This document shows positions 4,255 through 22,603 of a stretch of DNA of 64,000 nt, piece after piece; position 1 is the stretch's first letter, and the number at the start of each line of letters is the position of its first letter. The stretch is taken from the NCBI RefSeq assembly GCF_032463525.1, contig NZ_CP135971.1:1798001-1862000 (forward strand), written 5' to 3'. The stretch comes from Pseudomonas sp. DTU_2021_1001937_2_SI_NGA_ILE_001. GTDB lineage: Bacteria; Pseudomonadota; Gammaproteobacteria; Pseudomonadales; Pseudomonadaceae. Below the pieces are notes generated by a model, which was given only the letters and a program-made list of their open reading frames with translations, made no database searches and was not told the origin of the DNA. Made by a program: the position numbers and the translations under genes.

Positions 4255-4399
4255 AGTAAATCACAAATTTTTCACAACCTGTAACTACCTTTACAAGATT
4301 TAACAGCGCCCCTGACGAACAGCGCATCACCGCTCTACCCCGCACCTCCTGCCTGACAAGCCCTCCCATCTACGACGATGGCCGTAAGCCATGAAAAAA

Positions 4400-4431: not shown

Positions 4432-4522
4432 ACGCCGACACGCAGATAAAAGGCGTCGACCCGCCCGCTGGGTCCGAGCCCGACACCCTGCGTGAATAAC
4501 AATAATCATCGAGGGCTGTGCC

Positions 4523-7749: not shown

Positions 7750-7778
7750 GCCACGTACTGAACGCTTAAGCGAGTCGA

Positions 7779-8753
7779 TCAGTTGGCCTGAGACCTGCCC
7801 TGGCGACCGAGGCGCGGCGCCAGGCGCACATAGACCAGCTCGGCGCACAATTCCACCAGGGTCTGGGTGATGATCACCGCCGGCAGCACCGGAATCGCTC
7901 CCGGCACCGCCAGGGCCAGCGGCAGCACCACCAGGGAATTACGTGTCGCGGCACTGAACAGCACCGCCCTGCCCGCTGCCGCGTCGAGGCGCCAGGCCCG
8001 TGCCACACAGGCGCCGAGCAACGGGGTGATGAGCGCGAACGCCAGGTACACCGGCAACACCGCCAGCGCGCTGGGCAGTGCGGCTTCGATACGCGGCCCG
8101 GTTGCGGCGATCACGATGAGCAGCACCAGCGCCGTGGCGGGTACCGGGCACAGCCCCAGGCCGAGATTGACGCCCGCCATCGCACGGCTGCGCCGGCCCA
8201 GCCATTGCAGGGCGGCGGCCAGCAGCAACGGCAGTGCGATCAGCCAGGCGAAGGCCTGCAGGAACGGCCCGGCATGAATGACTCCGGTGGCCATCTCGCC
8301 CAGCAGGGCCTCCAGGTACAGCGGCAGTGCCAGCATCTGCACCACCAGCAGCACTGGGGTGGCGGCCAGCAGCAGCCGTGCGTCGCCGCGTCCCAGTTGG
8401 GTGAAAGTCACCACATAGTCGATGCACGGTGCCAGTAACACCAGCAGCACACCCAGGCGCACCAGAGGGTCGGCCGGCACCAGCGGCAGCAGCGCCCACA
8501 CCAGCAACGGCACGACGATGAAATTGGCGGTCAGCAGCGCGCCGATGAAGCGCAGCCGAGTAAAGGCCTGGCGCAGTTCGACCAGTGGCACCTGCAGAAA
8601 GGTCACCAGCAGCATGAAGGCCAGTGCCGGCTCGACAGCCGCCTCCAGCGCCTCGGTGCCCGGCAGTTGCCAGGCCAGCACAGCCGCCAGCAGCACGGCG
8701 ACGAAGTAAATGGTGACCTGACGGTTTTCCAGAGCATCCCGGACAGCTTGCAT
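7779..8753 (-). CDS. ACR3/bile acid:sodium symporter family membrane transporter
   Basis: A 324-residue integral membrane protein with about ten hydrophobic segments. The motif LLAPCIDYVVTFTQLG resembles the cysteine-containing segment of ACR3-type arsenite carriers (COG0798), and the later SAATRNSLVVLPLALA segment is also typical. Related Pseudomonas proteins are usually labelled arsenic resistance protein, but there is no arsR, arsC or arsH beside it, so its real substrate is uncertain. GAGGAG precedes the ATG by 7 bases. The short C-terminus is basic. Confidence 0.75.
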   Translation of the reverse strand: MQAVRDALENRQVTIYFVAVLLAAVLAWQLPGTEALEAAVEPALAFMLLVTFLQVPLVELRQAFTRLRFIGALLTANFIVVPLLVWALLPLVPADPLVRLGVLLVLLAPCIDYVVTFTQLGRGDARLLLAATPVLLVVQMLALPLYLEALLGEMATGVIHAGPFLQAFAWLIALPLLLAAALQWLGRRSRAMAGVNLGLGLCPVPATALVLLIVIAATGPRIEAALPSALAVLPVYLAFALITPLLGACVARAWRLDAAAGRAVLFSAATRNSLVVLPLALAVPGAIPVLPAVIITQTLVELCAELVYVRLAPRLGRQGRSQAN

Positions 8754-8946
8754 GCAGCGACTCCTCGTTGCGGACGAAGGCTGGCCAGCCTTCTGGATCA
8801 GGCTGCCGAACCTACAGGGATTTGCTCGTCACTTGAAGCCTGCGGCAGCCCTGCCAGCGGATTGATGGACCTTTTGCCATTACCGGCCACTCCAACCTGC
8901 AGGACGTGCCTCGGCACCTGTATCGCTGTATTGGAGAGGTAAAGCG

Positions 8947-9486
8947 ATGGTCATTGCCTGCCTGGGATGGGGTTCACTGATATGGAAACCGGGCGATCTG
9001 CCTTTGCGCTGCGAGTGGTTCTTCGATGGCCCGAGGCTGCCGGTGGAATTCTGCCGGGTCGGCGACGGCGGCGAACTGGCCACGGCCTTGTGCATGAACG
9101 CGACGCCCAGCCAGGTGCTGTGGTCGGTACTGGATGTGCCTGACCTGGATACGGCCTGCCAGGCGTTGCGCGTGCGCGAGCAGATTCCCGAGCAGCGCGA
9201 CGATGGCGTCGGCCTGTACGTGCCGGCGCGTAACGACCAGGGGGTCCTGGCCGACTGGGCCCTGGAGCGCGGTGTCGACGCCCTGGTGTGGACGGCACTG
9301 CCGCCAAGGATCGACAACCAGGAAGGTCGCCTGCCCAGCCGCAAGCAGGCCATCGATTACTTGCAGGGCCTGCAGGGCGAAACCCGCGAGCACGCCCGCG
9401 ACTACCTGGCCCGCGTGCCGGAACAGATCGCCACGCCCTGGCGGCGTGAGGTCATGCGTGCGCTGGACCTGAACTCAGGCGCCTAG
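8947..9486 (+). CDS. Gamma-glutamylcyclotransferase-like protein
   Basis: A 179-residue protein starting MVIACLGWGSLIW. The GWGSLIW stretch corresponds to the YGSL loop that binds the gamma-glutamyl group in the GGCT/AIG2 fold. Enzymes of this fold release 5-oxoproline from gamma-glutamyl amines; Pseudomonas homologues of this form are mostly uncharacterised. GGAGAGG lies about 9 bases before the ATG. The gene stands alone and is followed by a long repeat-rich region. Confidence 0.65.
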   Translation: MVIACLGWGSLIWKPGDLPLRCEWFFDGPRLPVEFCRVGDGGELATALCMNATPSQVLWSVLDVPDLDTACQALRVREQIPEQRDDGVGLYVPARNDQGVLADWALERGVDALVWTALPPRIDNQEGRLPSRKQAIDYLQGLQGETREHARDYLARVPEQIATPWRREVMRALDLNSGA

Positions 9487-9550
9487 CCGCACGCTGCCGC
9501 TCGCGAACGCAGCATCACGCTTACAGCCACTACTATTCAGTCAGGCCGGG

Positions 9551-9637
9551 TAGGAGCGGCTTCAGCCGCGAAACGACCGCCTATTCACGACAGATGCAGG
9601 GAGTTTCCTGACGCTTTCGCGGCTAAAGCCGCTCCCA
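9551..9637. repeat. 87-bp paired-REP element, copy 1
   Basis: The ends form an imperfect 22-bp inverted repeat (TAGGAGCGGCTTCAGCCGCG at the left, its reverse complement at the right). Each arm is itself a small palindrome around GCGGCT/AGCCGC. The interior contains the conserved spacer TTCACGACAGATGCAG. The same 87-base length and spacer recur at 9703-9789, 19310-19396 and 19412-19498, so this is a defined mobile or duplicated unit of the BIME kind. Confidence 0.8.
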
Positions 9638-9702
9638 CCGGCCACGTAACGACTAACTGAACTGTATTGCGCTTACAGCCAATACTCTTCAGTCAGGCCG
9701 GG

Positions 9703-9789
9703 TAGGAGCGGCTTCAGCCGTGAAACGACCGCCTATTCACGACAGATGCAGTGAATTTCCTGGCGCTTTCGCGGCTAAAGCCGCTCCCA
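9703..9789. repeat. 87-bp paired-REP element, copy 2
   Basis: Nearly identical to copy 1 and exactly 152 bases downstream of it. The flanking GCTTACAGCC and CAGGCCGGG sequences are duplicated too, so the whole 152-base segment was copied in tandem. Confidence 0.8.
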
Positions 9790-9948
9790 CCGGCCACATG
9801 CCGTTTAGGCGAACAGTATTGCCCCTAGCCGCAATACTGATCTTTTAGACCAGAGTAATCTGATTGGCGTCGCTTTTGCTTTTCAAGCACCGCCCTCACA
9901 GACGCCGCAAAACGCGACTTCGGTGCAGGCCGAGTGGAGGTGTCATGG

Positions 9949-10128
9949 AAGGGGGTAAGCCGGCAGGGATGCCGGCTTAGGCGCACTGGGCCAGGGACGG
10001 CCCATTGCGCCGCCCCCCTGGAATGGCGCCGGAAGGAGGGAAGTCTGCCCGCAGGGCAGACCCAAGCCAGGAGCAATGCCTTTTGGTTACTTTTGGCGCG
10101 CAGGGCACCTGGAAACCAAAAGTAACCC
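9949..10128. repeat. Highly structured intergenic element with four hairpins
   Basis: Four stems follow one another: TAAGCCGGC/GCCGGCTTA (9956-9964 with 9971-9979), GCGCACTGGGCC/GGCCCATTGCGC (9981-9992 with 9999-10010), GTCTGCCC/GGGCAGAC (10043-10050 with 10054-10061) and GGTTACTTTTGG/CCAAAAGTAACC (10085-10096 with 10116-10127). A G5 run at 9951-9955 can pair with the C run at 10013-10018 and enclose the first two. I recall similar sequence as a dispersed non-coding repeat in pseudomonads, but cannot check that here. It could be a transcribed RNA or a mobile repeat. Confidence 0.6.
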
Positions 10129-10200
10129 GCCGTCAGGGCGGAAAGGTGACTCAAAGGCACTGGTGCTGCGGCGGGTGTACCCGGTCTAGATAGCCTGCCA

Positions 10201-10223
10201 TTCGCGAGCAAGCTCGCTCCCAC
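10201..10223. repeat. Single REP sequence
   Basis: TTCGCGAGCAAGCTCGCTCC contains the palindrome GCGAGC-AA-GCTCGC, the classical P. putida-type REP core. It lies 30 bases beyond the 3' end of the LysE gene. Confidence 0.7.
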
Positions 10224-10252
10224 GGTCTGAACTGTATTGCCCCTGGCCGTGT

Positions 10253-10882
10253 TCAGGCCGAGCGTTCGAAGAACACCAGGCGTATGGCCAGGGCCGCCAT
10301 GACCCCGGCGAAGCCGTAGTTGGCCAGCCGTGCGCGGCGCGAACCGCCGACCAGGCGGCGCTTGAGCAGCAGCGCGGCGGCGGCCAGCAGCGCATTGAAC
10401 AGCAACGCCATGAGCGACAGCAACGCGCCGAGGACCAGCAGTTGCAGAGCGACGTGGCCATTGCCGAGGGTGACGAACTGCGGCAGGAACACCATGAAGA
10501 ACAGCAGTGCCTTGGGGTTGAGCAGGCTGTTGAGCGCGGCGCGCAGCAGCACCCGGGGCCAGGCGGCCAGTTGTGCCGGTTGCCCGGTTGGCGCCTTGGC
10601 GTCTTTGACCGCCTGCCAGGCCATCCACAGCAGGTAGGCGGCACCGAGCATGCGCAGGATCTCGAACGCTGGCGCCCAGCTCATCACCAGCGCTCCGACA
10701 CCGGCGCTGACCAGCAGGGTCAGTACCAGATCAGCCAGCGCATTACCCAAGGCAGCGGCAAACCCGGCCCGCCAACCATAGGCCAGCGCATGGCTGGTAA
10801 CGAACGCCATGTTCGGGCCGGGCACGACCAGCAGCACAAGTGCGGCGAGGCTGAAGAGGTAGAGGCTGTTCAAGTCCGGCAT
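10253..10882 (-). CDS. LysE/RhtB family amino acid exporter
   Basis: A 209-residue inner-membrane protein with about six hydrophobic segments. The N-terminal VVPGPNMAFV and the following YGWRAGFAAALG segment are signatures of the LysE/RhtB translocator family, which exports amino acids and related small molecules. The start at 10882 is chosen over the longer frame because the upstream extension is hydrophilic and unlike the family, and GGGAG lies about 9 bases before this ATG. It lies 143 bases downstream of the response regulator gene on the same strand and may be read through from that operon. Confidence 0.85.
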   Translation of the reverse strand: MPDLNSLYLFSLAALVLLVVPGPNMAFVTSHALAYGWRAGFAAALGNALADLVLTLLVSAGVGALVMSWAPAFEILRMLGAAYLLWMAWQAVKDAKAPTGQPAQLAAWPRVLLRAALNSLLNPKALLFFMVFLPQFVTLGNGHVALQLLVLGALLSLMALLFNALLAAAALLLKRRLVGGSRRARLANYGFAGVMAALAIRLVFFERSA

Positions 10883-11025
10883 GGGCAACACTCCCTGAGG
10901 TCGAAGCCACACAGTAGAGGCTCGGCGCAGCCGACCATAGATACAGACCGGGGCATTTTCGACCAGACAGTCGCCGCCAGGCTCGATGCCGCGTCTTCGC
11001 TGAAGCCAGCCTGACCGACCGTTTT

Positions 11026-12417
11026 CTAGCGCACGATCCGCTCGACATGGATCTCCAACTTCTTGATCCGGTACCACAGGCTGCGTTCGGAAATGCCCAG
11101 CAGTTGCGCGGCGGCGGCCTGGACGCCCTGGGTGCGCTGCAGGGCAGCGAGGATGCAGGTCTTTTCCACTTGCGCCAGGGCAGCGTCGAGGTCCGAGGGA
11201 ATGTCGCTCACGGCGTCGAGCGGTGCCGCATCCTGGGCCGCGGGAGCGTTGAACAGATAGCCCGGCAGGTCGCTGTCCTGGATCACCGGCCCGCTCGCCA
11301 CGATGGTGGCGCGTTCGACGCAGTTCTGCAGTTCGCGGATATTGCCCGGCCAGGCATAGCGACTCATGGCCAGCAGCGCTTCGGGGCTGAAACCGGTGAT
11401 GCGCTTGCCGGCCTCGGCGCCCAGGCTGTGGGCGAAATGACGCGCCAGCGGGGCGATGTCTTCGACCCGCTCACGCAGCGGCGGCAGCGGAATCGGGAAG
11501 ACGTTGAGGCGGTAGTAGAGGTCTTCGCGAAACTCCTTGTTCGCCACCGCTTCGAGCAGGTCCTTGTTGGTGGCTGCGATGACCCGCACATCCACCTTGC
11601 GCTCGCGCGGATCACCCACCGGCTCGATGATGCGCTCCTGCAGGGCACGCAGGATCTTGGCCTGCAGCGCCAGGGGCATTTCACCGATTTCGTCGAGAAA
11701 CAGCGTGCCCTTGTCGGCTTGCTGGAAGCGCCCTACCCGGTCTGCCACCGCCCCGGTGAAGGCGCCCTTGCGGTGGCCGAACATCTCGCTCTCCAGCAGG
11801 CCTTCGGGAATCGCCGCACAGTTGACCGCCACGAACGGCTGGTCGGCGCGATTACCGTGGCGGTGGATGGCGCGGGCGACCATTTCCTTGCCGGTGCCGC
11901 TCTCCCCGGTCAGCAGAATGGTGGCGCTGCTTTCGCGCACCGATTCCACGGCCTGGATCACCCGGCGGAAGGCCGGGCTCTCGCCCACCAGGCTGTCGAT
12001 CTGCCGGTGCTCGTCGAGTTCGGCGCGCAGGCGATGGTTGTCGCGCAGGATGTCACGGAATTGCAGGGCCTTGCTGACGGTGATGTCCAGCTCGTCGATG
12101 TCGAACGGCTTGGCGATGTAGTCGAAGGCACCGTTGCGCATCGACTGCACGGCGTTCTTCACCGTGCTGTAGGCGGTCATGACGATCACCGGCACCTGCG
12201 GGTAGCGCGTGCGGATTTCCGCCAGCAGTTGCGGACCATCCATGCCAGGCATGCGCCAGTCACTGATCACCAGGTCGATGTCTTCGCGCTCCATGACCGT
12301 CAGGCCATGCAGACCGTTACCGGCGGTGAACACCTGCAGGTTGCTGTGGCTCAGGGCCGAGGCCAGCAGGTCGCAGAGCTTGGGTTCGTCGTCGACCACC
12401 AGCACGTTGTGGCTCAT
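11026..12417 (-). CDS. Sigma-54-dependent response regulator, NtrC family
   Basis: A 463-residue activator. Residues 1-120 are a receiver domain with phospho-acceptor Asp53 (LVISDWRMPG). The central AAA+ domain has Walker A GESGTGKE, the GAFTGA loop that contacts sigma-54, and LFLDEIGEM. The C-terminal end carries a Fis-type helix-turn-helix (AAAAQLLGISERSLWYRIKK). All residues needed for sigma-54 activation are present. Its ATG overlaps the stop of the sensor kinase by four bases, so the two are translationally coupled. It is the last gene of a six-gene operon whose promoter region carries a sigma-54 site and a palindromic enhancer candidate, which suggests it activates its own operon. Confidence 0.93.
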   Translation of the reverse strand: MSHNVLVVDDEPKLCDLLASALSHSNLQVFTAGNGLHGLTVMEREDIDLVISDWRMPGMDGPQLLAEIRTRYPQVPVIVMTAYSTVKNAVQSMRNGAFDYIAKPFDIDELDITVSKALQFRDILRDNHRLRAELDEHRQIDSLVGESPAFRRVIQAVESVRESSATILLTGESGTGKEMVARAIHRHGNRADQPFVAVNCAAIPEGLLESEMFGHRKGAFTGAVADRVGRFQQADKGTLFLDEIGEMPLALQAKILRALQERIIEPVGDPRERKVDVRVIAATNKDLLEAVANKEFREDLYYRLNVFPIPLPPLRERVEDIAPLARHFAHSLGAEAGKRITGFSPEALLAMSRYAWPGNIRELQNCVERATIVASGPVIQDSDLPGYLFNAPAAQDAAPLDAVSDIPSDLDAALAQVEKTCILAALQRTQGVQAAAAQLLGISERSLWYRIKKLEIHVERIVR

Positions 12418-14168
12418 GGCTGCTTTCCTTGATCGCTGTGTTCATGGCTGGGCAGGTACAGGTTGAAGGTCGCCCCGGCGCCTGGTTCGCTGATGCACTC
12501 GATGTGCCCGTCGTGGTTTTCCATGATCGAGTAGACCTTGGCCAGGCCCAGGCCGGTCCCCGAAGCCTTGGTGGTGACGAACGGCGTGAAGATGCGTTCG
12601 AGCATGTCGGCCTCGATACCCTGCCCGGTGTCGCTGACGCTGATCAGCGTCCAAGGCCCTTCGCTGGACAGGCTGAGGGTCAGGGTGCCGCCGTCGGGCA
12701 TCGCGTCGATGGCGTTGAGCACCAGGTTCAGGCACGCCTGGGTCAGTTGGCGGCCATCGGCATAGATACGCGTTTCGGCGTCGCGCTCTTCGATGTGCGC
12801 TTCGATATGCCGGGTCGCCAGCTCCGGCGCGCAGAAACCCAGCAGGTCCTCCAGCAGCGGGCGGGCCGGCTGCAGCGAGCGCAGCGGCGCGCTGGGCCGG
12901 GCGAAATCGAGAAACTCGGTGATCAGGTCGTTGATGCGCGTCACCTCGCTGATCACGTATTCGAGGTGGCGCATGTCGGCTTCCGGCAAGGCCGCGCGGC
13001 GGTGCAGCAACTGCGTGGCGGTCTTGATGATGCCCAGCGGGTTGCGAATCTCGTGGGCCAGGCCCATGGCCACTTCACCCAGGGTGTGCAGGCGGTCGCG
13101 ACGGCGCAACTGGGCTTCGAGGTCCTGCAGCTCGCGCAGGCGCTCGGTCATGTGGTTGAAGGTCACGCTCAGGTCGGCCAGCTCATCGCTGCCGATCACC
13201 TCGACATGCTGCTGATAATCGCCGGCGGTCACCGCCTGCACCCCTGCGGCCAGCCCACGCAGCGGGCGGGTCAGGCGCTGCGAGATGAACCAGCCGACGC
13301 TCAGCGACAGCGCCGAGCCGAACAGCAGGATCAACAGGAACAGGTTGGTCTGGTTGACCAGCCCGACCAGCGTCGAATGGCGCAGCAGGCCGCTGAACAC
13401 CACCCCTTGCATGTCGCCGCCGTCGTTGAAGATCGGCGAATACACGCCGCTGTAGCGCGAATTGGACTGTTCGCTGGGCTCACGGGTCTGGCGCAGCAGC
13501 GTCTCGATACCCGGCGGTACGCGCAACGGGTGGTTCTCGAAGCGCTGAGTGGAAAAGACTTCGGCAAAGCCCTCCTGGTCCTTAAGGTACAGGCGCAGGT
13601 CGAGGGAATGCACGTCGGCGACGCTGGTCAGGAAGCTGCTGTCCAGGTAGGTGGCGATCATCAACTGGCAATCGACCCCGCCCTGGATGGTGTGATAGGT
13701 GGAAACCACCGCCCCCACCGGCGCGCCGCCGTAGCGCACGGTCTGCAGCACTTCATCGGCGCCCAGGCTGATCTGCCCGACCACTGCATCCGGCGCGGTG
13801 GAATACAGCACCTGGTGGTCGCTGCTGCGCACCAGCGCCACCACGTCGATGCCCATGGCATCGGCAATGTCGGCGATGCGCCGGTCAGGCACCTTGCCCG
13901 GTTGCGCGCCGTTGTCCAGGTAGCCGAGGAACAACTGCGCGGCGCGCGCGTTGTCGCGCAGGATCTCGCTGATCTCGTCGTTGACGATGCGCGTCGACTC
14001 CTGCAGCCAGATACGCACGTTGCTGTCGAAGATCTGCGACAGCGTGGTAGCGGCCAGCTCGGCGGCGATCATGGTAGGGATCACACTGACCAACCAGAAC
14101 GCCAGCACCAGCTTGCGCTGCACGGTCCAGCGCGACAGGGAAAACAACCGGGGTTTGGCCTGGGTCAT
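12414..14168 (-). CDS. Sensor histidine kinase of the NtrB class with a large periplasmic domain
   Basis: A 584-residue membrane kinase. Transmembrane segment 1 is at residues 20-40 and segment 2 at about 274-298. The roughly 235-residue periplasmic region between them is probably a double Cache-like sensor. A HAMP domain follows, then the phospho-acceptor His372 in GLAHEIRNPLG, the N box LNLVLNAIDAMPDGG and the ATP lid with DTGQGIE and GTGLGLA. The start at 14168 overlaps the stop of the upstream gene by four bases; the longer frame is not supported. It should phosphorylate the sigma-54 activator encoded next. The signal sensed is unknown. Confidence 0.92.
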   Translation of the reverse strand: MTQAKPRLFSLSRWTVQRKLVLAFWLVSVIPTMIAAELAATTLSQIFDSNVRIWLQESTRIVNDEISEILRDNARAAQLFLGYLDNGAQPGKVPDRRIADIADAMGIDVVALVRSSDHQVLYSTAPDAVVGQISLGADEVLQTVRYGGAPVGAVVSTYHTIQGGVDCQLMIATYLDSSFLTSVADVHSLDLRLYLKDQEGFAEVFSTQRFENHPLRVPPGIETLLRQTREPSEQSNSRYSGVYSPIFNDGGDMQGVVFSGLLRHSTLVGLVNQTNLFLLILLFGSALSLSVGWFISQRLTRPLRGLAAGVQAVTAGDYQQHVEVIGSDELADLSVTFNHMTERLRELQDLEAQLRRRDRLHTLGEVAMGLAHEIRNPLGIIKTATQLLHRRAALPEADMRHLEYVISEVTRINDLITEFLDFARPSAPLRSLQPARPLLEDLLGFCAPELATRHIEAHIEERDAETRIYADGRQLTQACLNLVLNAIDAMPDGGTLTLSLSSEGPWTLISVSDTGQGIEADMLERIFTPFVTTKASGTGLGLAKVYSIMENHDGHIECISEPGAGATFNLYLPSHEHSDQGKQP

Positions 14169-15292
14169 GAATGTTCGCTTATAGCGGCCGCCATGGCGGG
14201 ATCGTGTCGGTCGGGGCGGATGAGCCGTTTCACCAGGCGCAGCAAGGTGTCGATCAACCAGTTGCGATGGCGAAAGAACAGCATATTGCCCTGGAATCGG
14301 CAACCGAAACGCATCTTGCTGGCGTAGCCGGCCTGCCCGCACTCGTAAGTGCTGATGCCCTGACGGATGCAGTATTCGACGTTGGCCAGCCAGCTGCGGG
14401 CGTAAAGGCTGTGCTCGCGGGTGCGTTGCAGGTCATGGGCGAAGAATTTGTCGAGCAGGCGGTGTTCGTCGACCAGCAGCAGATTGAAGGCCGCCAGTTG
14501 CCCGTCGACCCAATACAGCACGCAGGCTGCCCGGCCTGGCAGGCGCTGCAGGACACCGGTGAAGTAATCCGGCCCCAGGCGCTCGAACTGCAGGTCGCTA
14601 CGTGCCAGGGTGGCTTCATACAGGCGCATCATTTCCGGCAGCACGTCGTCGACCTGCTGGCGCCACTCGATCTGCGGCGCCGGGCTGCGCAACAGGCGTC
14701 GCAGGTCCTTGCGGGTGGACTTGCCCAAGGTGCCGACGTAGTCATCCAGGCAGGCGAAGCCCACCGGCAGGCTGGCGCCGGGCAAGCTCGGCAGCGCATG
14801 CAACCCGGCCTGCTCGCAGGCCTGCACCCATTCGCCAGCGGCCAGCGGCGCGTCCTTGACCGCCAGCAGGCCAATCTCGAAACGCTGCGCATCCTCGCGG
14901 GCCAGCGCCAGCAGGCGTTGCAGCAGGTCGGCGCGCTGTACCTGCGGCAGGTGGCGGGCCACCCCCGCTTCACAGCGCTCGGCCACGGGCGAGCCCAGGG
15001 CATACAGCCCCAGTTGCAAGGCACCCGGCCACAGGCGTGCCAGCGCCTGGCTCAGGCGCCTTGCCAGGCCCTGCACCGTGGTGTCCAGGCTGTAGCGGGT
15101 GATGAACGCCGGCACCGCCGCCACGAGTTGCTGGTCTTCATACAGCGCCAGGTAGCGCCATTCGAAACCCTCGATACCGGCTTTCTCCACGGCCAGGTAG
15201 TAGTCCCAGTCTTCCAGCGTGTCGGGGAAACAGGCGTTCCACTGTTCACGCTCGATACGTTCGATGCTGGCGAATGCATGGGCGGTGATCAT
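14165..15292 (-). CDS. GNAT-fold acyl/aminoacyl-transferase-like protein (Acetyltransf_6/FemAB-related)
   Basis: A 375-residue soluble protein. The middle part contains GTLGKSTRKDLRRLLR and the C-terminal half a GNAT-like core (CVLYWVDGQLAAFNLLLVDEH, then STYECGQAGYASKMRFG). This arrangement matches the BioF2-like/Acetyltransf_6 group, related to FemAB transferases that attach acyl or aminoacyl groups to amines. There is no signal peptide, so it acts in the cytoplasm. It overlaps the sensor kinase by four bases and is separated from the hydrolase by 4 bases. With the aminotransferase upstream, a plausible job is acylation of the new amino group; this is inference. Confidence 0.7.
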   Translation of the reverse strand: MITAHAFASIERIEREQWNACFPDTLEDWDYYLAVEKAGIEGFEWRYLALYEDQQLVAAVPAFITRYSLDTTVQGLARRLSQALARLWPGALQLGLYALGSPVAERCEAGVARHLPQVQRADLLQRLLALAREDAQRFEIGLLAVKDAPLAAGEWVQACEQAGLHALPSLPGASLPVGFACLDDYVGTLGKSTRKDLRRLLRSPAPQIEWRQQVDDVLPEMMRLYEATLARSDLQFERLGPDYFTGVLQRLPGRAACVLYWVDGQLAAFNLLLVDEHRLLDKFFAHDLQRTREHSLYARSWLANVEYCIRQGISTYECGQAGYASKMRFGCRFQGNMLFFRHRNWLIDTLLRLVKRLIRPDRHDPAMAAAISEHS

Positions 15293-15296
15293 CGCG

Positions 15297-16166
15297 TCAG
15301 GCCCTGCGTGGCAAGGCAGCCACTGCCGGGGCGATGAGCCCTTCGACACGGGCATCGATGAAGTTGGCACTCAGGTTCACCACCTCGCGGTATTGCAGGT
15401 CGACGGTGATCATGTGGTAGCAGTTGTCGAGCAGCACCTTGAACACCGGGCCGCCGATGTGCCGTTCGATGTAGTCAGCGTTCCAGCGGCTGGTGATGTC
15501 GTCTTCCCGGGAATGCAGCACCAGCGCCGGTGTTCGGATCGACGGCATCCCGCGCTTGGTCCTGGCGATCAGCCGATGCAGCTCGCGCACACTGATGCCC
15601 GACATGGTCAACAACCCGGCATTGCTGCTTTCGCCGTCTTTCATCTGCCGCTCGACGATGGCTCGCAGGCGCGGATTCTTGATGCCGTAGGGCGGCTTTT
15701 CGTTGAAGCGGCAGATGTGCACGCCAAACGGAATGGCCATGAAAATCCGCGTGAAGCGTGCGGCGAACGGCATGTTCCAGCCGTCGTAGCGCAAGGTCGT
15801 GGAATACAGCAGCAGGCCGGCGACCTGGCCGGGGTGTTCGGCGGCCAGGTGCATGGCCATCACCGCGCCCATTGACAGCCCGCCGACGAACACCTGCGCG
15901 TGGCGGGCGCGGATGCCGGCGAACGCGCGCCGGGCGCTTTCATACCAGTCAGTCCAGACCGTGCGACGCAGGTCGTCGTTGTTGCCACAATGGCCGGCCA
16001 GGGTCGGCACGTAGACCGTGCAGCCCCGGTCCGCCAGGCCCTGGGCCACGCGGCGCAGCTCGGCCGGCGTACCGGTCAGGCCGTGGATGAGCAGCACCGC
16101 GACCTCACCGGTGCCGACTGCGAAGCCGGCATCCCCCTCACCCATCTCCACCGCGACGGCGTTCAT
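15297..16166 (-). CDS. Alpha/beta hydrolase, carboxylesterase/monoacylglycerol-lipase type
   Basis: A 289-residue hydrolase. The nucleophile is Ser98 in GGLSMG, the oxyanion loop is HGLTGTP (28-34), and the acid and histidine of the triad are likely in HSREDDIT and NCYHMITVD. The strand-turn order fits small bacterial carboxylesterases of the Est30 kind, which cleave acyl esters or thioesters. No signal peptide is seen. Its ATG overlaps the stop of the aminotransferase by four bases, a sign of coupled translation. In this operon it may hydrolyse or transfer an acyl intermediate. Confidence 0.82.
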   Translation of the reverse strand: MNAVAVEMGEGDAGFAVGTGEVAVLLIHGLTGTPAELRRVAQGLADRGCTVYVPTLAGHCGNNDDLRRTVWTDWYESARRAFAGIRARHAQVFVGGLSMGAVMAMHLAAEHPGQVAGLLLYSTTLRYDGWNMPFAARFTRIFMAIPFGVHICRFNEKPPYGIKNPRLRAIVERQMKDGESSNAGLLTMSGISVRELHRLIARTKRGMPSIRTPALVLHSREDDITSRWNADYIERHIGGPVFKVLLDNCYHMITVDLQYREVVNLSANFIDARVEGLIAPAVAALPRRA

Positions 16167-17557
16167 CGTTTCATGGCCCGATGCAGCAGGCGGTCGAGCA
16201 GGGCCAGGCCCAGGTCGATCTCCTCGTAGGTGATCTCCAGCGACGGTGCCAGGGTGATGACGTTCTTGTAGTAGCCACCCACGTCCAGCACCAGGCCCAG
16301 ACGCCGACCATCGACTTCCAGGTCGCCCTTCATGCCTTCTTCGACCATGAAGTCCAGGGTCGCCTTGTCCGGGGTGAAGCCGTCGGCCGCGCAGATTTCC
16401 GCACGCAAGGCCAGACCCAGGCCGTCGACGTCGCCGATGATCGGATAGCGCTTCTGCAGCTCCTGCAGGCCGGCGAGGAAATACTTGCCCTTGGCCATGA
16501 CCATGGCGCCGTAGTCGACTTCCGAGGTCATCTTCAGCACTTCAACCCCGACGGCCGTGCCTAGCGGGTTGGAGGCGAAGGTCGAGTGGGTCGAACCTGG
16601 CGGGAAGATCCCGGGGTTGATCAGCTCCTCACGGGCCCAGAGGCCGCCCAGCGGGTTGAGGCCGTTGGTCAGTGCCTTGCCGAACACGATGACGTCCGGC
16701 TTGACGTCGAAGTGTTCGATGGACCACAGCTTGCCGGTACGGAAGAAGCCCATCTGGATCTCGTCGACCACCATCAGGATGCCGTGCTGGTCAAGGACCT
16801 TCTTCAGCTCGCTGTAGAAGTTCATCGGCGGGATCACATAGCCGCCGGTGCCCTGGATCGGCTCCACATAGAACGCCGCGTACTCGCTCTGGCCGACCTT
16901 GGGGTCCCAGACACCGTTGTATTCGGTCTCGAACAGCCGGGCGAACTGCTGCACGCAGAGACTGCCGTACTCTTCCTTGCTCATGCCTTTCGGGCCACGG
17001 AAGTGGTACGGGAACGGGATGAACTGCGCACGCTCGCCGAAATGCCCGTAACGGCGGCGGTAGCGGTAACTGGAGGTGATCGACGAGGCGCCCAGGGTGC
17101 GGCCGTGGTAGCCACCTTCGAAGGCGAACATCAGGCTCTTGCCCTGGGTGGCGTTGCGCACCACTTTCAGCGAGTCCTCGATGGACTGCGAACCGCCGAC
17201 GTTGAAATGCACGCGGCCATCGAGGCCGAACTTGTTGCGGGCATCCACGGCGATGCGTTCGGCCAGCTCGATCTTGCCCTTGTGCAGGTACTGGCTGGCG
17301 ATCTGCGGCAGGGTGTCGATCTGCTGCTTGAGGGCGTTGTTCAGGCGCGGGTTGGCATAGCCGAAGTTGACCGCCGAGTACCACATCTGCAGGTCGAGGT
17401 AGGCCTGGTCGCTGGTGTCGAAGACGTAGGAGCCTTCGCAGCGGCTGAAGATGCGCGGGGGTTCGATGTAGTGAACGGTGTCACCGTAGGAGCAGTACTT
17501 GGCTTCCTTGTCGAGAAGGATGCGGTCTTCGGCGGTAGCGATGCGGATATCAGACAT
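16163..17557 (-). CDS. Class III pyridoxal-phosphate aminotransferase
   Basis: A 464-residue omega-type aminotransferase. The cofactor lysine is Lys294 in VFGKALTNGL, and the aspartate that contacts the pyridine ring is Asp265 in VVDEIQMGFFRTGK. GGYHGRTLGA is also typical. Class III enzymes move amino groups to terminal or beta/gamma carbonyls (for example diaminobutyrate, acetylornithine, taurine), rather than to alpha-keto acids. The N-terminal MWYSAVNFGYANPRLNNALK stretch does not match a named enzyme I can assign. Its start overlaps the upstream phosphatase gene by eight bases. It is the most informative enzyme for guessing the pathway. Confidence 0.9.
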   Translation of the reverse strand: MSDIRIATAEDRILLDKEAKYCSYGDTVHYIEPPRIFSRCEGSYVFDTSDQAYLDLQMWYSAVNFGYANPRLNNALKQQIDTLPQIASQYLHKGKIELAERIAVDARNKFGLDGRVHFNVGGSQSIEDSLKVVRNATQGKSLMFAFEGGYHGRTLGASSITSSYRYRRRYGHFGERAQFIPFPYHFRGPKGMSKEEYGSLCVQQFARLFETEYNGVWDPKVGQSEYAAFYVEPIQGTGGYVIPPMNFYSELKKVLDQHGILMVVDEIQMGFFRTGKLWSIEHFDVKPDVIVFGKALTNGLNPLGGLWAREELINPGIFPPGSTHSTFASNPLGTAVGVEVLKMTSEVDYGAMVMAKGKYFLAGLQELQKRYPIIGDVDGLGLALRAEICAADGFTPDKATLDFMVEEGMKGDLEVDGRRLGLVLDVGGYYKNVITLAPSLEITYEEIDLGLALLDRLLHRAMKR

Positions 17558-18248
17558 GATGGAAACGTTCCTGCAGTTCGGGAGTAAGGGTCGGGACGAT
17601 CGGGGTCAGCAGCTGCGGCAGGTTGGCCAGCAGCGCGGGGATTTCGGCAAAGGTGTCGAAGCGTGCATGGGGCAGCCCGAGGCGCACGCAGTGGTCGGCG
17701 AGGCTGCCGCGGGCCAGGACGAAGTCGGCGGTCTCGGCCACGCACATGTCCGAGCGCCCGTCGCCGATCACCAGCACGTGGCGGCCCGCCGGCACCGAGC
17801 GGCACTTGCAGTTGCCGGCAGCGGCGCGGCAGGTGTCACGGGCATAGGGAAAGACGATGCGCCAGCGGTCGTGGTCGACCTGGCGCAGGCCGTTGGCAAC
17901 GATCGGCAGCAGCGGGCAGTCGTTGCGCGACAGGATCCGCGCGATGGCCTGCTCCAGGCCGTCGCTGACGATATCCAGGGTCGCGCCGAGGCTGGTGGCC
18001 AGGTCGACGAAGGCCGGGAAGTCCGGGTCGATGGCCACGCTGTCGAAGTAGCCCAGCAGTTGCGCCGGGGTGGCCCGTACCAGGGCCAGTTGGCGGGTCA
18101 GGCACTCCCGCGAGCCGATCTGGCCGTCGAGCCATTGTTGTTCGATCGCTTCCCAGCCGGGTTCGGCGAAGCGTTCCAGGATGCTGTCGATGACGTCGGT
18201 CCGGGTCACGGTACCGTCGAAGTCACACACGATATGCCAGTGCATCAT
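17550..18248 (-). CDS. HAD-superfamily phosphatase, MtnX/phosphoserine-phosphatase-like
   Basis: A 232-residue HAD subfamily IB hydrolase. Motif I is CDFDGTVT with the nucleophile and acid aspartates at residues 9 and 11. LDIVSDGLEQ fits motif II, and HVLVIGDGRSDMCVAE is motif IV. Relatives dephosphorylate small phosphorylated metabolites, such as phosphoserine or the MtnX substrate in methionine salvage. No other methionine-salvage genes are nearby, so a different substrate is likely. It is the first gene of the six-gene operon; the start is 18248, or 18245 if the second of two adjacent ATGs is used. A sigma-54 promoter lies 54 bases upstream. Confidence 0.85.
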   Translation of the reverse strand: MMHWHIVCDFDGTVTRTDVIDSILERFAEPGWEAIEQQWLDGQIGSRECLTRQLALVRATPAQLLGYFDSVAIDPDFPAFVDLATSLGATLDIVSDGLEQAIARILSRNDCPLLPIVANGLRQVDHDRWRIVFPYARDTCRAAAGNCKCRSVPAGRHVLVIGDGRSDMCVAETADFVLARGSLADHCVRLGLPHARFDTFAEIPALLANLPQLLTPIVPTLTPELQERFHHV

Positions 18249-18301: not shown

Positions 18302-18317
18302 AGCAGCAAGCGTGCCA
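18302..18317 (-). promoter_or_regulatory. Sigma-54 promoter (-24/-12) of the six-gene operon
   Basis: On the minus strand the bases read TGGCACG-CTTG-CTGCT, which differs from the consensus TGGCACR-N4-TTGCW at one position. The essential GG and GC are present at the correct spacing. Transcription would start near 18291, giving a leader of about 43 bases before the phosphatase. The operon's last gene is a sigma-54 activator, which supports the call. Confidence 0.8.
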
Positions 18318-18378
18318 ACGCACCACAAGCCCGCAGGACGTGGCCTGCAGCCTGTGCGGGGGTAAAAGGCGGCGGGTG

Positions 18379-18407
18379 GAGCTACAAATTTTGTAGCTCG
18401 CTACAAA
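18379..18407. promoter_or_regulatory. Palindromic enhancer (UAS) candidate for the sigma-54 activator
   Basis: GAGCTACAAA-T-TTTGTAGCTC (18379-18399) is a perfect 10-bp inverted repeat around one base. A third half-site GCTACAAA follows at 18400-18407, 19 bases from the first. The block lies about 90-115 bases upstream of the predicted start site, the normal distance for an NtrC-type activator. It could also influence the divergent MipA-like gene. Confidence 0.7.
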
Positions 18408-18481: not shown

Positions 18482-19285
18482 ATGCCACCGATGCGCAATT
18501 TGCTCTGCGGCGTCGCGCTCTGCGCCACGCTGGTCAGCCCGCCCGGGCGCGCCGCCGAGCCGGACGCCAGCGCCGCCAAGCCGCTGTGGGGCTTGCAGGG
18601 CATGGCCGGAGCGCTGTGGTCGTATCGCCCCTACGACCCCACGGCGAGCAGCTACGAGTTCAAGGCCGTGCCGTACCTGGACCTGAGCCTGGGCGATGTC
18701 GACCTGGACTCCGAAGACGGGCTGTCGTGGAACGCCTTCAAGACCGAAAACGGCTGGAGCGCCGGGCCGTATCTCAACTACCTGCCAGGACGCGACGGCC
18801 AGGGCTCGCTGCGCGGCCTGCGGGATGTCTCGGGCATGGGCGTGGCCGGTGGCTTCGTGGCCTACAGCCCGGTGCAATGGCTGAGCCTGTTCGCTCGCGC
18901 CGGGCGCACCTTCGGCACCGCCGAGAGCCAGGGCGGCGTGTTGGGCCAGGTGGGCGCGGAGGCTGATTATCCATTGGGCGCCGGAGTATTCGGCAGCACC
19001 CGGCTGGTGGCGCACCTGGCCAACCGAGAGCTGAACCAGACGTTCTTCGGGGTCAGTGCGGACGAGTCGCAGGCCTCGGGCATTCGCCCGTACAACGCTG
19101 GCGGTGGCCTGCGTGACCTGACCCTGAGCCAGAGCCTGGCGGTGCCGCTGTCGCCACACTGGTCGCTGCTGGGCAACCTGAGCTGGACCCACCTGACCGG
19201 CTCGGCCGCCGACAGCAGCATCGTCCAGCAACGCGGCCACGCCGAGCAGGGTGAAGTGGACATCGGCGTGGCCTATCACTTCTGA
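18482..19285 (+). CDS. MipA/OmpV family outer-membrane protein
   Basis: A 267-residue outer-membrane barrel protein. It has a signal peptide ending near residue 25 (GRAA-EPD). The motif NQTFFGVSADESQASG and the following GGGLRDLTLSQSL are characteristic of MipA/OmpV proteins, and the chain ends in an aromatic residue (AYHF). Family members scaffold peptidoglycan enzymes or respond to envelope conditions. AGGA lies 7 bases before the ATG; a second ATG three codons on is possible. It diverges from the sigma-54 operon and shares its regulatory region. REP-type repeats follow it. Confidence 0.85.
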   Translation: MPPMRNLLCGVALCATLVSPPGRAAEPDASAAKPLWGLQGMAGALWSYRPYDPTASSYEFKAVPYLDLSLGDVDLDSEDGLSWNAFKTENGWSAGPYLNYLPGRDGQGSLRGLRDVSGMGVAGGFVAYSPVQWLSLFARAGRTFGTAESQGGVLGQVGAEADYPLGAGVFGSTRLVAHLANRELNQTFFGVSADESQASGIRPYNAGGGLRDLTLSQSLAVPLSPHWSLLGNLSWTHLTGSAADSSIVQQRGHAEQGEVDIGVAYHF

Positions 19286-19309
19286 GAGTCCCCCGCTCAA
19301 GCCGACTTG

Positions 19310-19396
19310 CAGAAACGACTACAGCCGCGAAGCGACCGTATGTTCACGACAGATGCACTGATTTTCCTGGCGCTTTCGCCGCTAAAGCCAATACGG
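19310..19396. repeat. 87-bp paired-REP element, copy 3 (degenerate ends)
   Basis: Aligns to the other copies through CAGCCGCGAAGCGACCG, the TTCACGACAGATGCA spacer and CGCTTTCGCCGCTAAAGCC. The outermost arm bases have diverged, so the terminal inverted repeat is incomplete. Confidence 0.7.
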
Positions 19397-19411
19397 CTCA
19401 GTTAGACCGGG

Positions 19412-19498
19412 TAGGAGCGGCTTCAGCCGCGAAGCGATCGCATGTTCACGACAGATGCAGTGAGCTTCCTGGCGCTTTCGCGGCTAAAGCCGCTCCCA
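19412..19498. repeat. 87-bp paired-REP element, copy 4
   Basis: Same length, ends and spacer as copies 1 and 2, including TAGGAGCGGCTTCAGCCGCG and the closing AAAGCCGCTCCCA. Confidence 0.8.
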
Positions 19499-19613
19499 CC
19501 GGGCCACATGCCGCTTAAGCGGACAGTAGTGTGGCTATAGCCGCCTAGCCGACCCCATCGGCGAAATCAGGGGCCGGTAAAGCCCATACCATTTGCGGCT
19601 CTTGATACGCGGT

Positions 19614-20030
19614 TCAACCCTCCCCCTCGGCCATGACCGCGATGCCGCTGATGATGATCGCCACGCCCACCCAGCGCAGCCAGTCGATTTGCTCACCCAG
19701 CCCCAGCCAGGAACCCAGCAGCACGCCGACGAACACCAGCGAGCTCAAGGGAAAGGCCACGCTCACCGGGGCACTGCGCAGAATCAGCATCCACACGAAG
19801 AACGACCCCGCATAGCAGGCCAGCGCCAGCAGCACTGCGGGCGTCAGCAGCGCAGTGCCCAACCAGGCCAGGCCGAATGGCAGATGGGTAAGCGCATCGC
19901 CGCCCACCTTCATGGCGATCTGCGCCGTGCTTTCACTGCCGATCAGCAACAGCCACAGCACCACGGCGGTGACGCGATGCTGCAGCCAGCCAGGCGTGCT
20001 GGAAAGACTCGAAGACGATGTCGTGTTCAT
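19614..20030 (-). CDS. Small multidrug resistance/EamA-like four-helix transporter subunit
   Basis: A 138-residue inner-membrane protein with four predicted helices after a 20-residue polar N-terminus. The first helix contains LLLIGSESTAQIAMKVG with a glutamate (Glu33) where SMR transporters have their essential proton-coupled Glu. The last helix, WVGVAIIISGIAV, is typical of the DMT superfamily. It lies 2 bases downstream of a second four-helix gene, which suggests they form a heterodimer, as paired SMR proteins do. The substrate is unknown. Confidence 0.75.
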   Translation of the reverse strand: MNTTSSSSLSSTPGWLQHRVTAVVLWLLLIGSESTAQIAMKVGGDALTHLPFGLAWLGTALLTPAVLLALACYAGSFFVWMLILRSAPVSVAFPLSSLVFVGVLLGSWLGLGEQIDWLRWVGVAIIISGIAVMAEGEG

Positions 20031-20032
20031 GC

Positions 20033-20407
20033 TCAACCTCCACTGGCGATGACCAGCATCACCCCACCGGTAATGATCAGCGTGCCGAGCCAGCGGCGGC
20101 GGCTCACCGCCTCGCCCAGCACCAGGCGCCCGGCCAGCACCACCCCGCAATAGGCCAGGCTGGCGGCAGGAAAGGCCAGGCTCAAGGGGGCCAGCGACAG
20201 CACCGCCAGCCACACCAGGAACTCCAGGGCATAGGCCAGGATGCCGGCCCACAGCAACGGCGCGCCCAGCAGCTGCCACCAGAAGCCGGCCAGGCGAAAG
20301 CCGCCGTCCATTTCCGGCAGGCGGTCCAGACCCAGCTTGAAGGCGATCTGTCCGGCGACATCGAGACCGATGGACAGCGCGATCAGCGCAATCACCGAGG
20401 GACTCAT
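20033..20407 (-). CDS. Small multidrug resistance/EamA-like four-helix transporter subunit
   Basis: A 124-residue four-helix membrane protein, partner of the gene just downstream. The first helix, LSIGLDVAGQIAFKLGLD, has Asp16 at the position of the usual SMR glutamate. The two partners thus differ at the key acidic site, which points to an asymmetric heterodimer. Its ATG overlaps the stop of the ureohydrolase-like gene by four bases, so all three genes form one translationally coupled unit. Confidence 0.75.
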   Translation of the reverse strand: MSPSVIALIALSIGLDVAGQIAFKLGLDRLPEMDGGFRLAGFWWQLLGAPLLWAGILAYALEFLVWLAVLSLAPLSLAFPAASLAYCGVVLAGRLVLGEAVSRRRWLGTLIITGGVMLVIASGG

Positions 20408-21324
20408 GGGAACACCTCGTCGAACAGCGCCAGCAAGGCCGCGTTGGTCTGCGCATTGCGCTGGATATCCGCAGCGCTCCAGCGTTCGGCGGGTGGCTGG
20501 TCGCTGCGCGCCTCCCAGCGCTTGAACGGGTTGCGATGCGCCGGTGCTGAAAACTCGCCGCATACGTCGATACCCAGCACCCGCTTGCGCGTGGCCAGCA
20601 GGCGCAACGCCTCGAGCAGGTGGCTCAGGCGCATGCCGCCCTGGTCCCAGTTGGTGGCCGCGTCTTCACTGGCCAGCACGTCCTTGTCGATGGTGATCCA
20701 CACCGCTTCGGTGGGCAGCGTCGCCGCCAACTGGGCAAGAAACCGCGACCAGTCCAGCTCGGCCAGGTTGGTCCAGTGCAGGTAGTGGCCGCGCTGCTGG
20801 TGGCCAGGGCCGTCGCCCACATGCCCCCACACCCGCGACGGCGCGTGCTGCCAGGGGAACAGCTGCAGCTGCCCGCTGCGCAGGGCGGCGAAGTTGGCCC
20901 CGCGCAACTGCGGGTTATGCAGGTCGTCGCTGCACGGCCCGAGGGTGATCACGCGGCGAACCAGCGGCAACTGCAACGCCCGGTTGACCCACGAGCCGCA
21001 ATGCCGGCGCGGCGCCAGGCGTACCCAGTCGGGGTGGTTGTCGAAGTGGATCAGGCTGACCGGCTCGGTCAGCCCGGCGAGAAACGCCGGGGTCAGGTGG
21101 TGGTAATCGCCGGAGCCGACGAAATAGATCTGCGGCCGGCGCCCCCTGGGCCGGCTGCTCTGCTGCAGGCGCTGGCTGAAGGTCCGGTAGCGGGCTTCGG
21201 TGGTCCACAGCCGCAGGTGCGGCCCGAGGTCGAGCAGGTCGATATGCGTGGCGCGGCCTTCGGTCAGGCGCCGGGCGATGGGTTCCTGGGCGGTAAGGCT
21301 GTGGTCGAGGTCGAGGATGTTCAA
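20404..21324 (-). CDS. Arginase/ureohydrolase-fold protein
   Basis: A 306-residue protein with the metal-binding motifs of the arginase superfamily: GSGDYHH (70-76) for the first histidine, HFDNHPDW (Asp95, His97, Asp99) and TIDKD (Asp213, Asp215). GIDVCGE near the C-terminal third fits the conserved glutamate region. The sequence around these motifs is unlike arginase, agmatinase or formiminoglutamase, so the substrate is open. The start is a TTG at 21324; there is no in-frame ATG near the N-terminus and only a weak AGGTG upstream. It is coupled to a two-gene SMR transporter, which may move its substrate or product. Confidence 0.75.
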   Translation of the reverse strand: MNILDLDHSLTAQEPIARRLTEGRATHIDLLDLGPHLRLWTTEARYRTFSQRLQQSSRPRGRRPQIYFVGSGDYHHLTPAFLAGLTEPVSLIHFDNHPDWVRLAPRRHCGSWVNRALQLPLVRRVITLGPCSDDLHNPQLRGANFAALRSGQLQLFPWQHAPSRVWGHVGDGPGHQQRGHYLHWTNLAELDWSRFLAQLAATLPTEAVWITIDKDVLASEDAATNWDQGGMRLSHLLEALRLLATRKRVLGIDVCGEFSAPAHRNPFKRWEARSDQPPAERWSAADIQRNAQTNAALLALFDEVFP

Positions 21325-21439
21325 GGCGCGAATTCACCTGTTCACCCCGCCCTGACACCGCCGGTACTGGATGTACGAGGCGGCCGGGCGGGCCTGAAGG
21401 GGGTGAATGCAAGGGGTGGGCCAGCTGTCGGCCGCGCGC

Positions 21440-22603
21440 TCAATCGACGGCGTTGGCCTGGTGCTCGGTGTCTACCGAGGTGTCGATGCTCACCACCACC
21501 GACATGCCTGGCCGCAGCCGCGCGGCCAGCGGCTGGTCGGGGTCGACGCTGATGCGCACCGGGATGCGCTGGGCGATCTTGACGAAGTTGCCGGTGGCGT
21601 TGTCGGCCGGCAACAGGCTGAACTCCGAACCGGTGGCTGGCGAGATGCGCTCGACCCGACCATTGAGCTTCTGATGGTCCAGGGCATCGACGCTGAAGCT
21701 CACCGGCTGGCCGAGGCGCACCTGGGCCATCTGGGTTTCCTTCAGGTTGGCGATGATCCACAGGTTATCGGGAACCAGGGCCATGAGCTGGGCACCGGAA
21801 TTCACGTAGGCACCGAGGCGCACGCCGATCTGCCCCAACTGGCCGTCGCGTGGCGCGGTAATGCGGGTGTTGTCCAGGTCGATACGCGCCAGTTCCACCG
21901 CGGCTTTGGCGTTCTCCACCTGGGCCTGCAGCGAGTCACGGTTGACGATCACCGTCTGCAGGTCTTCCCTGGCGATCTGCAAGGCGGCACGCGCCTCGGC
22001 TTCGGCGGCCTGGGCCTGGGCGTCGGCCGCGCGGGCGACGTCCAGCTCGCTGCGCGACACCGAGCCGTCGGTGACCAGCGCCTGGTTGCGCTTGAGATCG
22101 GCCGCGCTCTTGCGCACCTGTGCCGAGCTGCTCTGCAAGGCGGCCTGGCGCTGGGCGATGGTCGCCTCGGCACTGCGCCGCTGCTGCAGGTTGTTGGCCA
22201 GGGCCGCCTGCTGCACGCCCAGTTGCGCCTCGGCCTGCTCCAGGCGCTGACGGTAAATGCGGTCGTCCAGGCGCACCAGCAGTTGCCCGGCCTTCACATG
22301 CTCGAAGTCCTGCACCGTGACCTCATGCACGTAACCGCTCAGCTGCGGGCCGATCAGCGTGGTCTGGCCATGCACCTGGGCGTTCTCGGTACTCTGGATG
22401 GGGCTGGTGAACGGCGGCAGTTGCCAGGCGTAGAGCACGATGAGGATGCCGCCCAGGGCAATCAAGGCGAACAGCGTGGTGGAAATCACCCGTGCGCGCA
22501 GCGGCCGTGGCTTGCTGGTGGCCGGTGAGGTGAGCGGCGCCGGCGGCGGGTTGCTGGCGACCGGGGCCGCATCGGTGGAATCTTTACGGGTGGTGTCGTT
22601 CAT
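21440..22603 (-). CDS. HlyD/EmrA-type membrane fusion protein
   Basis: A 387-residue periplasmic adaptor of a tripartite efflux pump. One N-terminal membrane helix lies at about residues 43-62. A biotinyl-lipoyl-like half follows (VHGQTTLIGPQLSGYV), then a long alpha-helical hairpin rich in Ala, Gln and Glu (about 110-230), then the returning lipoyl half (NTRITAPRDGQLGQIGVRLG) and a beta-barrel domain. It links the MFS pump to an outer-membrane channel encoded elsewhere. Its ATG overlaps the stop of the pump gene by four bases. Confidence 0.9.
   Translation of the reverse strand: MNDTTRKDSTDAAPVASNPPPAPLTSPATSKPRPLRARVISTTLFALIALGGILIVLYAWQLPPFTSPIQSTENAQVHGQTTLIGPQLSGYVHEVTVQDFEHVKAGQLLVRLDDRIYRQRLEQAEAQLGVQQAALANNLQQRRSAEATIAQRQAALQSSSAQVRKSAADLKRNQALVTDGSVSRSELDVARAADAQAQAAEAEARAALQIAREDLQTVIVNRDSLQAQVENAKAAVELARIDLDNTRITAPRDGQLGQIGVRLGAYVNSGAQLMALVPDNLWIIANLKETQMAQVRLGQPVSFSVDALDHQKLNGRVERISPATGSEFSLLPADNATGNFVKIAQRIPVRISVDPDQPLAARLRPGMSVVVSIDTSVDTEHQANAVD

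Follow-up and report, generated by a model that had tools for sequence, protein, structure and literature searches.

A two-operon gene cluster of Pseudomonas with sigma-54-type promoters and a possible role in making an amine-bearing envelope compound

We analyzed a 64,000-nucleotide stretch of the genome of Pseudomonas sp. DTU_2021_1001937_2_SI_NGA_ILE_001 (contig NZ_CP135971.1, positions 1,798,001 to 1,862,000), referred to here as the window. Six intact open reading frames occupy positions 11026..18248 of its minus strand. In order, they encode a HAD-IB phosphatase (17550..18248), a class III pyridoxal phosphate (PLP) aminotransferase (16163..17557), an alpha/beta hydrolase (15297..16166), a FemAB/GNAT protein (14165..15292), a sensor histidine kinase (12414..14168), and an NtrC-type response regulator (11026..12417). 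Adjacent genes overlap by 8, 4, 4, and 4 bases, and the hydrolase and GNAT genes are separated by a 4-base gap. An earlier note on this DNA, made from the letters alone, had described these six overlapping genes, and both the sequence and Pfam searches bear out the families and junctions that it gave.

The phosphatase matches PF12710 (38.6 bits) and passes the broad NCBIfam HAD-IB subfamily model (58.5 bits, cut-off 45), whereas no narrower model is passed. Its DFDGT motif is conserved across aligned relatives. The protein is MtnX-like, but a role as MtnX in methionine salvage was rejected, with scores of 100.8 and 82.2 bits against cut-offs of 292 and 303.2 for the NCBIfam MtnX models.

Of all the cluster proteins, the aminotransferase (PF00202, 244.8 bits against a cut-off of 30.5) is the most strongly conserved, with 74-78% identity in 14 loci outside Pseudomonas. 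Its partner proteins in those loci average 28-44% identity, and the regulator 59.7% (n = 2). The lysine of its FGKAL motif aligns with a lysine of solved relatives, and we take it to be the PLP lysine. In class III aminotransferases that use glutamate/2-oxoglutarate, a C-terminal arginine contacts the alpha-carboxylate. This residue is replaced by threonine in all 12 aligned members of the present family, and it is found in both of the best solved relatives and in three of five usable paralogues from the same genome (L001, L002, and L008 were left out of the comparison). Because the other two paralogues (L005, L006) also lack it, loss of the arginine is not unique, and use of glutamate/2-oxoglutarate is only weakened as a proposal. 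In one genome (G140:C32:30284-31680), the aminotransferase match is split over two frames, with 95% and 85% identity; a pseudogene or a sequencing error is possible.

The hydrolase (PF12146, 73.3 bits) is monoacylglycerol-lipase-like, and its closest solved relatives are monoacylglycerol lipases. Its nucleophile is serine (GLSMG), and in four aligned Rhizobiales relatives (L114, L121, L122, L123) the corresponding residue is cysteine (GICxGG), a hint that the rhizobial enzymes may carry out acyltransferase chemistry. Among the matches shown, which for the aminotransferase were the best 25 of 69, no enzyme of the cluster reaches an NCBIfam equivalog cut-off, in keeping with the earlier note's finding no named pathway for the set. 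Judged on titles and the openings of abstracts, our searches of open-access papers turned up none that treats the gene set.

The fourth protein, of 375 amino acids, scores above the Pfam cut-off for PF04339 (FemAB_like), which covers residues 10-329 of the reading used. Sequence searches with this protein returned no solved relative and no NCBIfam match. The folds nearest to its structural model are those of FemX, FemA, and Sbb17 (Foldseek and VIA). The matches to Sbb17 and Sba18 have root-mean-square deviations of 3.0-3.1 Å over 272-274 residues, the lowest of the top matches, at 13-14% identity. The model has the tandem-GNAT fold of the FemABX/MprF group of aminoacyl-tRNA-dependent transferases, and we predict that the protein belongs to this fold. 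Therefore, in the step that the earlier note had described as acylation of the amine, "acylate" probably means "aminoacylate," and the step would occur in some strains only.

The six genes had also been called self-contained. On the contrary, the conserved unit comprises two operons and a MipA gene, the second operon, 1-3 kb upstream of the first, consisting of an arginase-like gene and two EamA-type genes (21324-19614). The first gene of the second operon encodes an arginase-family hydrolase (20404..21324, minus strand, TTG start; PF00491, 34.3 bits against 22). Its DNHPD, HCGSW, and DKD motifs are conserved, and DNHPD and DKD presumably supply the ligands of a binuclear metal site. No NCBIfam family comes close to its cut-off with this protein, agmatinase models scoring at most 13 bits. 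The next gene (20033..20407, minus strand) begins within the arginase-like gene, 4 bases being shared at the junction. This gene and its neighbor (19614..20030, minus strand) encode small membrane proteins whose relatives carry EamA annotation, although both score under the EamA cut-off of 28.2 bits (23.5 and 26.8, respectively). For the first, the best NCBIfam model is ArnF (51.1 bits, cut-off 99), with a second Arn score of 39.6; for the other, it is ArnE (42.5 bits, cut-off 92), with a second Arn score of 39.7, and Qac-type SMR pumps follow behind ArnE at no more than 29.7. Thus, the pair is predicted from these scores to be most like the ArnE/ArnF flippase. The divergent gene between the operons (18482..19285, plus strand) encodes a MipA/OmpV-family outer-membrane protein (PF06629, 120.4 bits against 24.2).

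Presence of these genes was counted in 149 Pseudomonas genomes (148 for GNAT), using E-value limits of our own choice. The phosphatase, aminotransferase, hydrolase, and kinase genes are each found in the identical 46 genomes, so that about one third of the sampled species carry the cluster. In all 46, the kinase gene lies on the contig of the aminotransferase gene, at a distance of 0.9-2.4 kb. This supports the earlier note's view of one functional unit, and the scattering in relatives that it had named as a refutation was not seen in the positive genomes. As to its question whether the four enzymes always travel with the kinase and regulator, the three core enzymes are always found with the kinase, but the GNAT protein is found in 37 of the 46. 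The GNAT gene, an optional module, has no occurrence outside these core-positive genomes and always lies within 1.3 kb of the aminotransferase gene on the same contig (37/37). The arginase-like gene, also optional, is present in 28 of 149 genomes, all of them among the 37 that carry GNAT (Fisher p = 4e-5 within the 46 genomes, kinship ignored). It is on the contig of the aminotransferase gene, at most 3.9 kb away, in 27 of the 28, and on a different contig in G079. In a class-wide search, the aminotransferase was found at an E-value of 1e-170 or better in 3 of 274 genomes, the present genome included.

Gene order and content were compared in 80 loci, which are the best-scoring of 580 aminotransferase loci and are biased toward close relatives. 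Gene content was counted in the 60 full-length Pseudomonas loci, with 11 short ones excluded. The phosphatase, aminotransferase, hydrolase, kinase, regulator, and MipA genes are present in 59 of these, both EamA genes in 50, GNAT in 45, and the arginase-like gene in 38. All 38 arginase-positive loci are also GNAT-positive. Going by this strict nesting of the arginase-like gene within GNAT, and of GNAT within the core, the arginase-like enzyme may rely on the product of the GNAT protein. A locus of P. protegens (L042) has the complete set of genes. One locus (L041) carries two GNAT paralogues (3550-4707 and 10304-11428), which are 38-39% and 66% identical to the GNAT protein of the window, and one of them sits between the EamA genes. 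The two copies may perform two successive aminoacylations.

The regulator combines a receiver (Response_reg, 107.7 bits), a sigma-54 AAA+ domain (Sigma54_activat, 246.2 bits), and a Fis-type helix-turn-helix (HTH_8, 53.2 bits) in one protein, with all three scores above the Pfam cut-offs. The closest NCBIfam model is AtoC (498.7 bits, cut-off 714). The adjoining kinase has HAMP, HisKA, and HATPase_c domains and a periplasmic part at about residues 40-275. In its AlphaFold model (predicted local distance difference test score 81.2), the periplasmic part best matches Cache-type ligand-binding domains, and a dCache-like sensor fold is therefore predicted. The kinase and regulator genes occur together in 59 of the 60 full-length loci. 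The NtrC-type control suggested in the earlier note is thus upheld.

Promoters were sought in 71 Pseudomonas loci by counting matches to 14 specified positions of the sigma-54 (-24/-12) consensus, with a threshold of at least 11 and reversed sequence as the control. The operon that begins with the phosphatase gene is preceded by a sigma-54-type promoter (18302..18318, minus strand, TTGGCACGCTTGCTGCT) that matches 12 of the 14 positions. In 70 of the 71 loci, such a site follows the palindrome described below and lies 65-88 bases upstream of the phosphatase match (reversed control, 1/71). A second sigma-54-type promoter (21408..21424, minus strand, CTGGCCCACCCCTTGCA, score 11) precedes the arginase/EamA operon. 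Of 52 Pseudomonas loci scanned, 49 have a counterpart of it (reversed control, 1/52), and these include loci that lack the arginase-like gene. The same scan gave sites for 2 of 70 MipA genes, 1 of 71 aminotransferase genes (reversed, 5/71), and 6 of 71 hydrolase genes (reversed, 1/71).

A palindrome, TTTGTAGC-N3-CTACAAA (18390..18407), lies in a strongly conserved block upstream of the phosphatase gene and is the presumed enhancer. Exactly one copy is present in 70 of the 71 Pseudomonas loci, and none is present in the 14 other loci scanned. Allowing up to two mismatches, it is the sole site in its own 5.66-Mb genome, where the reversed control pattern has one match. The regulator probably drives both operons, whose promoters are about 3 kb apart, from this single enhancer. 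The one Pseudomonas locus without the palindrome and the phosphatase promoter (L077) also lacks the kinase and regulator. This locus, in Pseudomonas libanensis (7232-10261), is a second copy of the phosphatase, aminotransferase, and hydrolase genes only, without MipA or a sigma-54 site, and the full cluster of the strain (L103) is on another contig. In a different locus (L071), the EamA operon is inverted, and the palindrome is about 860 bases upstream of it.

Relatives of the aminotransferase are found in Rhizobium, Agrobacterium, Xanthomonas, Nevskia, and other genera. In plasmid-borne relatives (Xanthomonas, Sinorhizobium, two Rhizobium, and Agrobacterium), genes for the phosphatase, arginase-family, two EamA-type, hydrolase, and GNAT proteins adjoin the aminotransferase gene. 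A two-component system directly adjoins the cluster in four rhizobial records, and these systems are other than the Pseudomonas one. Genes for acyl chains, namely those for a fatty acid desaturase, a cyclopropane synthase, and a ketosynthase with acyl carrier protein (ACP), are near several relatives. In two Nevskia loci (L109, L110), the phosphatase, aminotransferase, and hydrolase genes accompany a kinase of the same type (40% identity) and an NtrC regulator (59-60%); in L109, a cyclopropane-synthase gene then follows the cluster. A Bartonella plasmid copy consists of the aminotransferase, GNAT, and a weak arginase-like match only. On this plasmid, from Bartonella sp. HY406 (L119), the aminotransferase-GNAT pair has a gene for an MBOAT-family O-acyltransferase (13568-14950) at a distance of about 3 kb.

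The reading that we tentatively favor, at somewhat less than an even chance, is that the two sigma-54 operons, served by one palindromic site for the NtrC-type regulator, encode enzymes that make an amine-bearing and probably lipid-linked envelope compound, which would be aminoacylated in some strains and then flipped across the membrane. The aminotransferase and phosphatase would make the amine, and the alpha/beta hydrolase would transfer or remove an acyl group. In strains that possess it, the FemX-like enzyme would add an amino acid, and the arginase-like enzyme could act on the resulting product, for example by converting an arginyl to an ornithyl group. The EamA pair would carry the product outward, and MipA and the kinase might report the cue. 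That the best NCBIfam matches of the EamA pair are ArnF and ArnE raised our estimate for this reading slightly. A more specific version, which would amount to a novel tRNA-dependent pathway of the envelope, is that the amine head of a so far undescribed aminolipid, made by a dedicated transaminase, is charged by a FemX/MprF-like enzyme (possibly with arginine), trimmed on the lipid by the arginase-like enzyme, and flipped by the ArnE/ArnF-like pair, with one enhancer serving a pair of sigma-54 promoters separated by about 3 kb. This version gained marginally from the same matches, and we regard it as rather improbable in its full detail.

Several observations weigh against the envelope compound as we picture it. 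The ArnE/ArnF scores of the EamA pair are about half of the cut-offs, and the EamA genes are absent from the fetched flanks of 10 of the 60 full-length loci. The genes for acyl chains are found near relatives outside Pseudomonas, with none in the window or at the Agrobacterium copy, and no phosphatase gene lies next to the copy on the Bartonella plasmid. Among structural matches of the GNAT model, the scores of acetyl-CoA-type tandem GNATs (18.3, 17.5) and of N-myristoyltransferases (17.0) are not much lower, and MprF-type domains overlap them, so that aminoacyl-tRNA is a presumed donor. Cache domains usually bind small molecules, so a nutrient-type cue fits as well as envelope stress. Finally, a search of the Pseudomonas loci compared found no half-site of the enhancer conserved at the arginase/EamA operon itself. 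A single enhancer for both promoters is therefore the simplest inference, and control by the regulator across about 3 kb is assumed.

A small soluble product would be close to what the earlier note had pictured. In such a scheme, transamination and dephosphorylation, FemX-like aminoacylation, and export by the EamA proteins would yield an amino-acyl metabolite that serves as a signal or is an antibiotic-like secondary metabolite. The best fold matches of the GNAT model include Sbb17 and Sba18, which were solved with the small molecule streptothrisamine, an antibiotic precursor; two relatives adjoin ABC, TolC, and HlyD-type export genes; and the structural matches of the sensor include LuxQ. 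However, the desaturase, cyclopropane synthase, and ketosynthase/ACP genes near several relatives, together with the monoacylglycerol-lipase-like hydrolase and the ArnE/ArnF-like proteins, indicate that acyl chains or a lipid carrier are involved. Because rhizobial relatives have other two-component systems, because fatty-acyl genes are neighbors of relatives, and because the EamA pair resembles ArnE/ArnF, a lipid-linked product is favored. The best matches of that pair also lowered our estimate for the soluble metabolite slightly, and we now consider it unlikely, if still the chief competitor.

A catabolic or detoxifying pathway for an amine- or guanidine-bearing compound, with that compound acting as the inducer through the Cache sensor, is distinctly improbable. 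The aminotransferase would then deaminate, the arginase-like enzyme would remove urea, and the hydrolase would remove an acyl group. NtrC-type systems often govern catabolism, AtoC is the closest model for the regulator, and the sensor is Cache-like. However, the optional aminoacyltransferase-like step belongs to anabolism, the conserved cluster genes include neither a dehydrogenase nor an uptake transporter, and the acyl-chain genes of relatives are at odds with this reading. Least probable of all is that the FemAB-like protein has peptidoglycan, or a lipid-linked precursor of the wall, as its target while the remaining genes supply an unusual amino acid: PF04339 scores above its cut-off, the top structural matches include FemX and FemA, and an undecaprenyl-linked unit could be cargo for ArnE/ArnF-like proteins to flip, but 9 of the 46 genomes have the core without the FemAB-like gene, no wall-synthesis family was found by Pfam among the cluster proteins, and the neighbors of relatives are acyl-chain genes.

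If the envelope-compound reading is correct, the cluster represents an unrecognized route by which an envelope compound receives amino acids. The annotations "GNAT family N-acetyltransferase" and "arginase" are uninformative on the pathway. The natural series of gene contents (core, core plus transferase, and these plus the arginase-like gene) makes the order of steps testable through the products of existing strains, and the enhancer, with its single site in the present genome, offers a clean reporter for discovering the signal.

Other features flank the cluster or lie within it. Genes for HlyD and MFS-like proteins (21440-24309) resemble an EmrAB-type efflux pair. This pair and a LysE gene (10253-10882) were considered as members of the cluster and rejected, since their adjacency to it is inconsistent elsewhere. 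Between the MipA and EamA genes (19300-19545) are repeated GC-rich stretches (agcggctttagccgcgaaagcg and variants), which we take to resemble the REP elements of pseudomonads.

Among known systems, the arn operon, which places aminoarabinose on lipid A, combines an aminotransferase with two small membrane proteins and is controlled by a two-component system, and the cluster is like it in these respects. However, the EamA pair is well below the Arn cut-offs, the cluster regulator is of the sigma-54 type, and the other enzymes belong to other families; among the Pfam and NCBIfam matches shown for the cluster proteins, there is no further Arn-named family. In the aminoacyl-phosphatidylglycerol synthases MprF/LpiA, which go with an AcvB-type hydrolase, an N-terminal flippase is fused to the transferase, whereas the 375-residue GNAT protein shows no membrane-domain family in Pfam and is accompanied by separate small membrane proteins, which would stand in for the flippase domain. 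The cluster also has a dedicated aminotransferase along with phosphatase and arginase-like enzymes. The aminoacyl-tRNA-dependent peptide synthases Sbb17 and Sba18 are close to the GNAT model in fold, but distant in sequence. The hydrolysis of lysyl-phosphatidylglycerol is reported for AcvB and VirJ (PMC13135905).

Other peptide clusters linked to tRNA or synthetases, with arginase and acyl-handling enzymes, are described in a comparative study from 2010, in which a text search found neither FemAB nor aminotransferase (PMC2922099). A text search of a review of aminoacyl-tRNA-dependent enzymes finds neither arginase nor aminotransferase (PMC12945691). In P. aeruginosa, MipA is reported to bind polymyxins and to act with a two-component system, and is proposed to be a helper of the ParS kinase; according to its authors, a two-component system adjoins mipA homologues in most cases (PMC10936184). 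The present cluster differs from MipA/MipB-ParRS in that no beta-lactamase-like MipB is found among the cluster genes examined, and the kinase is Cache-like with an NtrC-type partner. The two systems share a gene for a MipA-family barrel beside a two-component system (PMC10936184).

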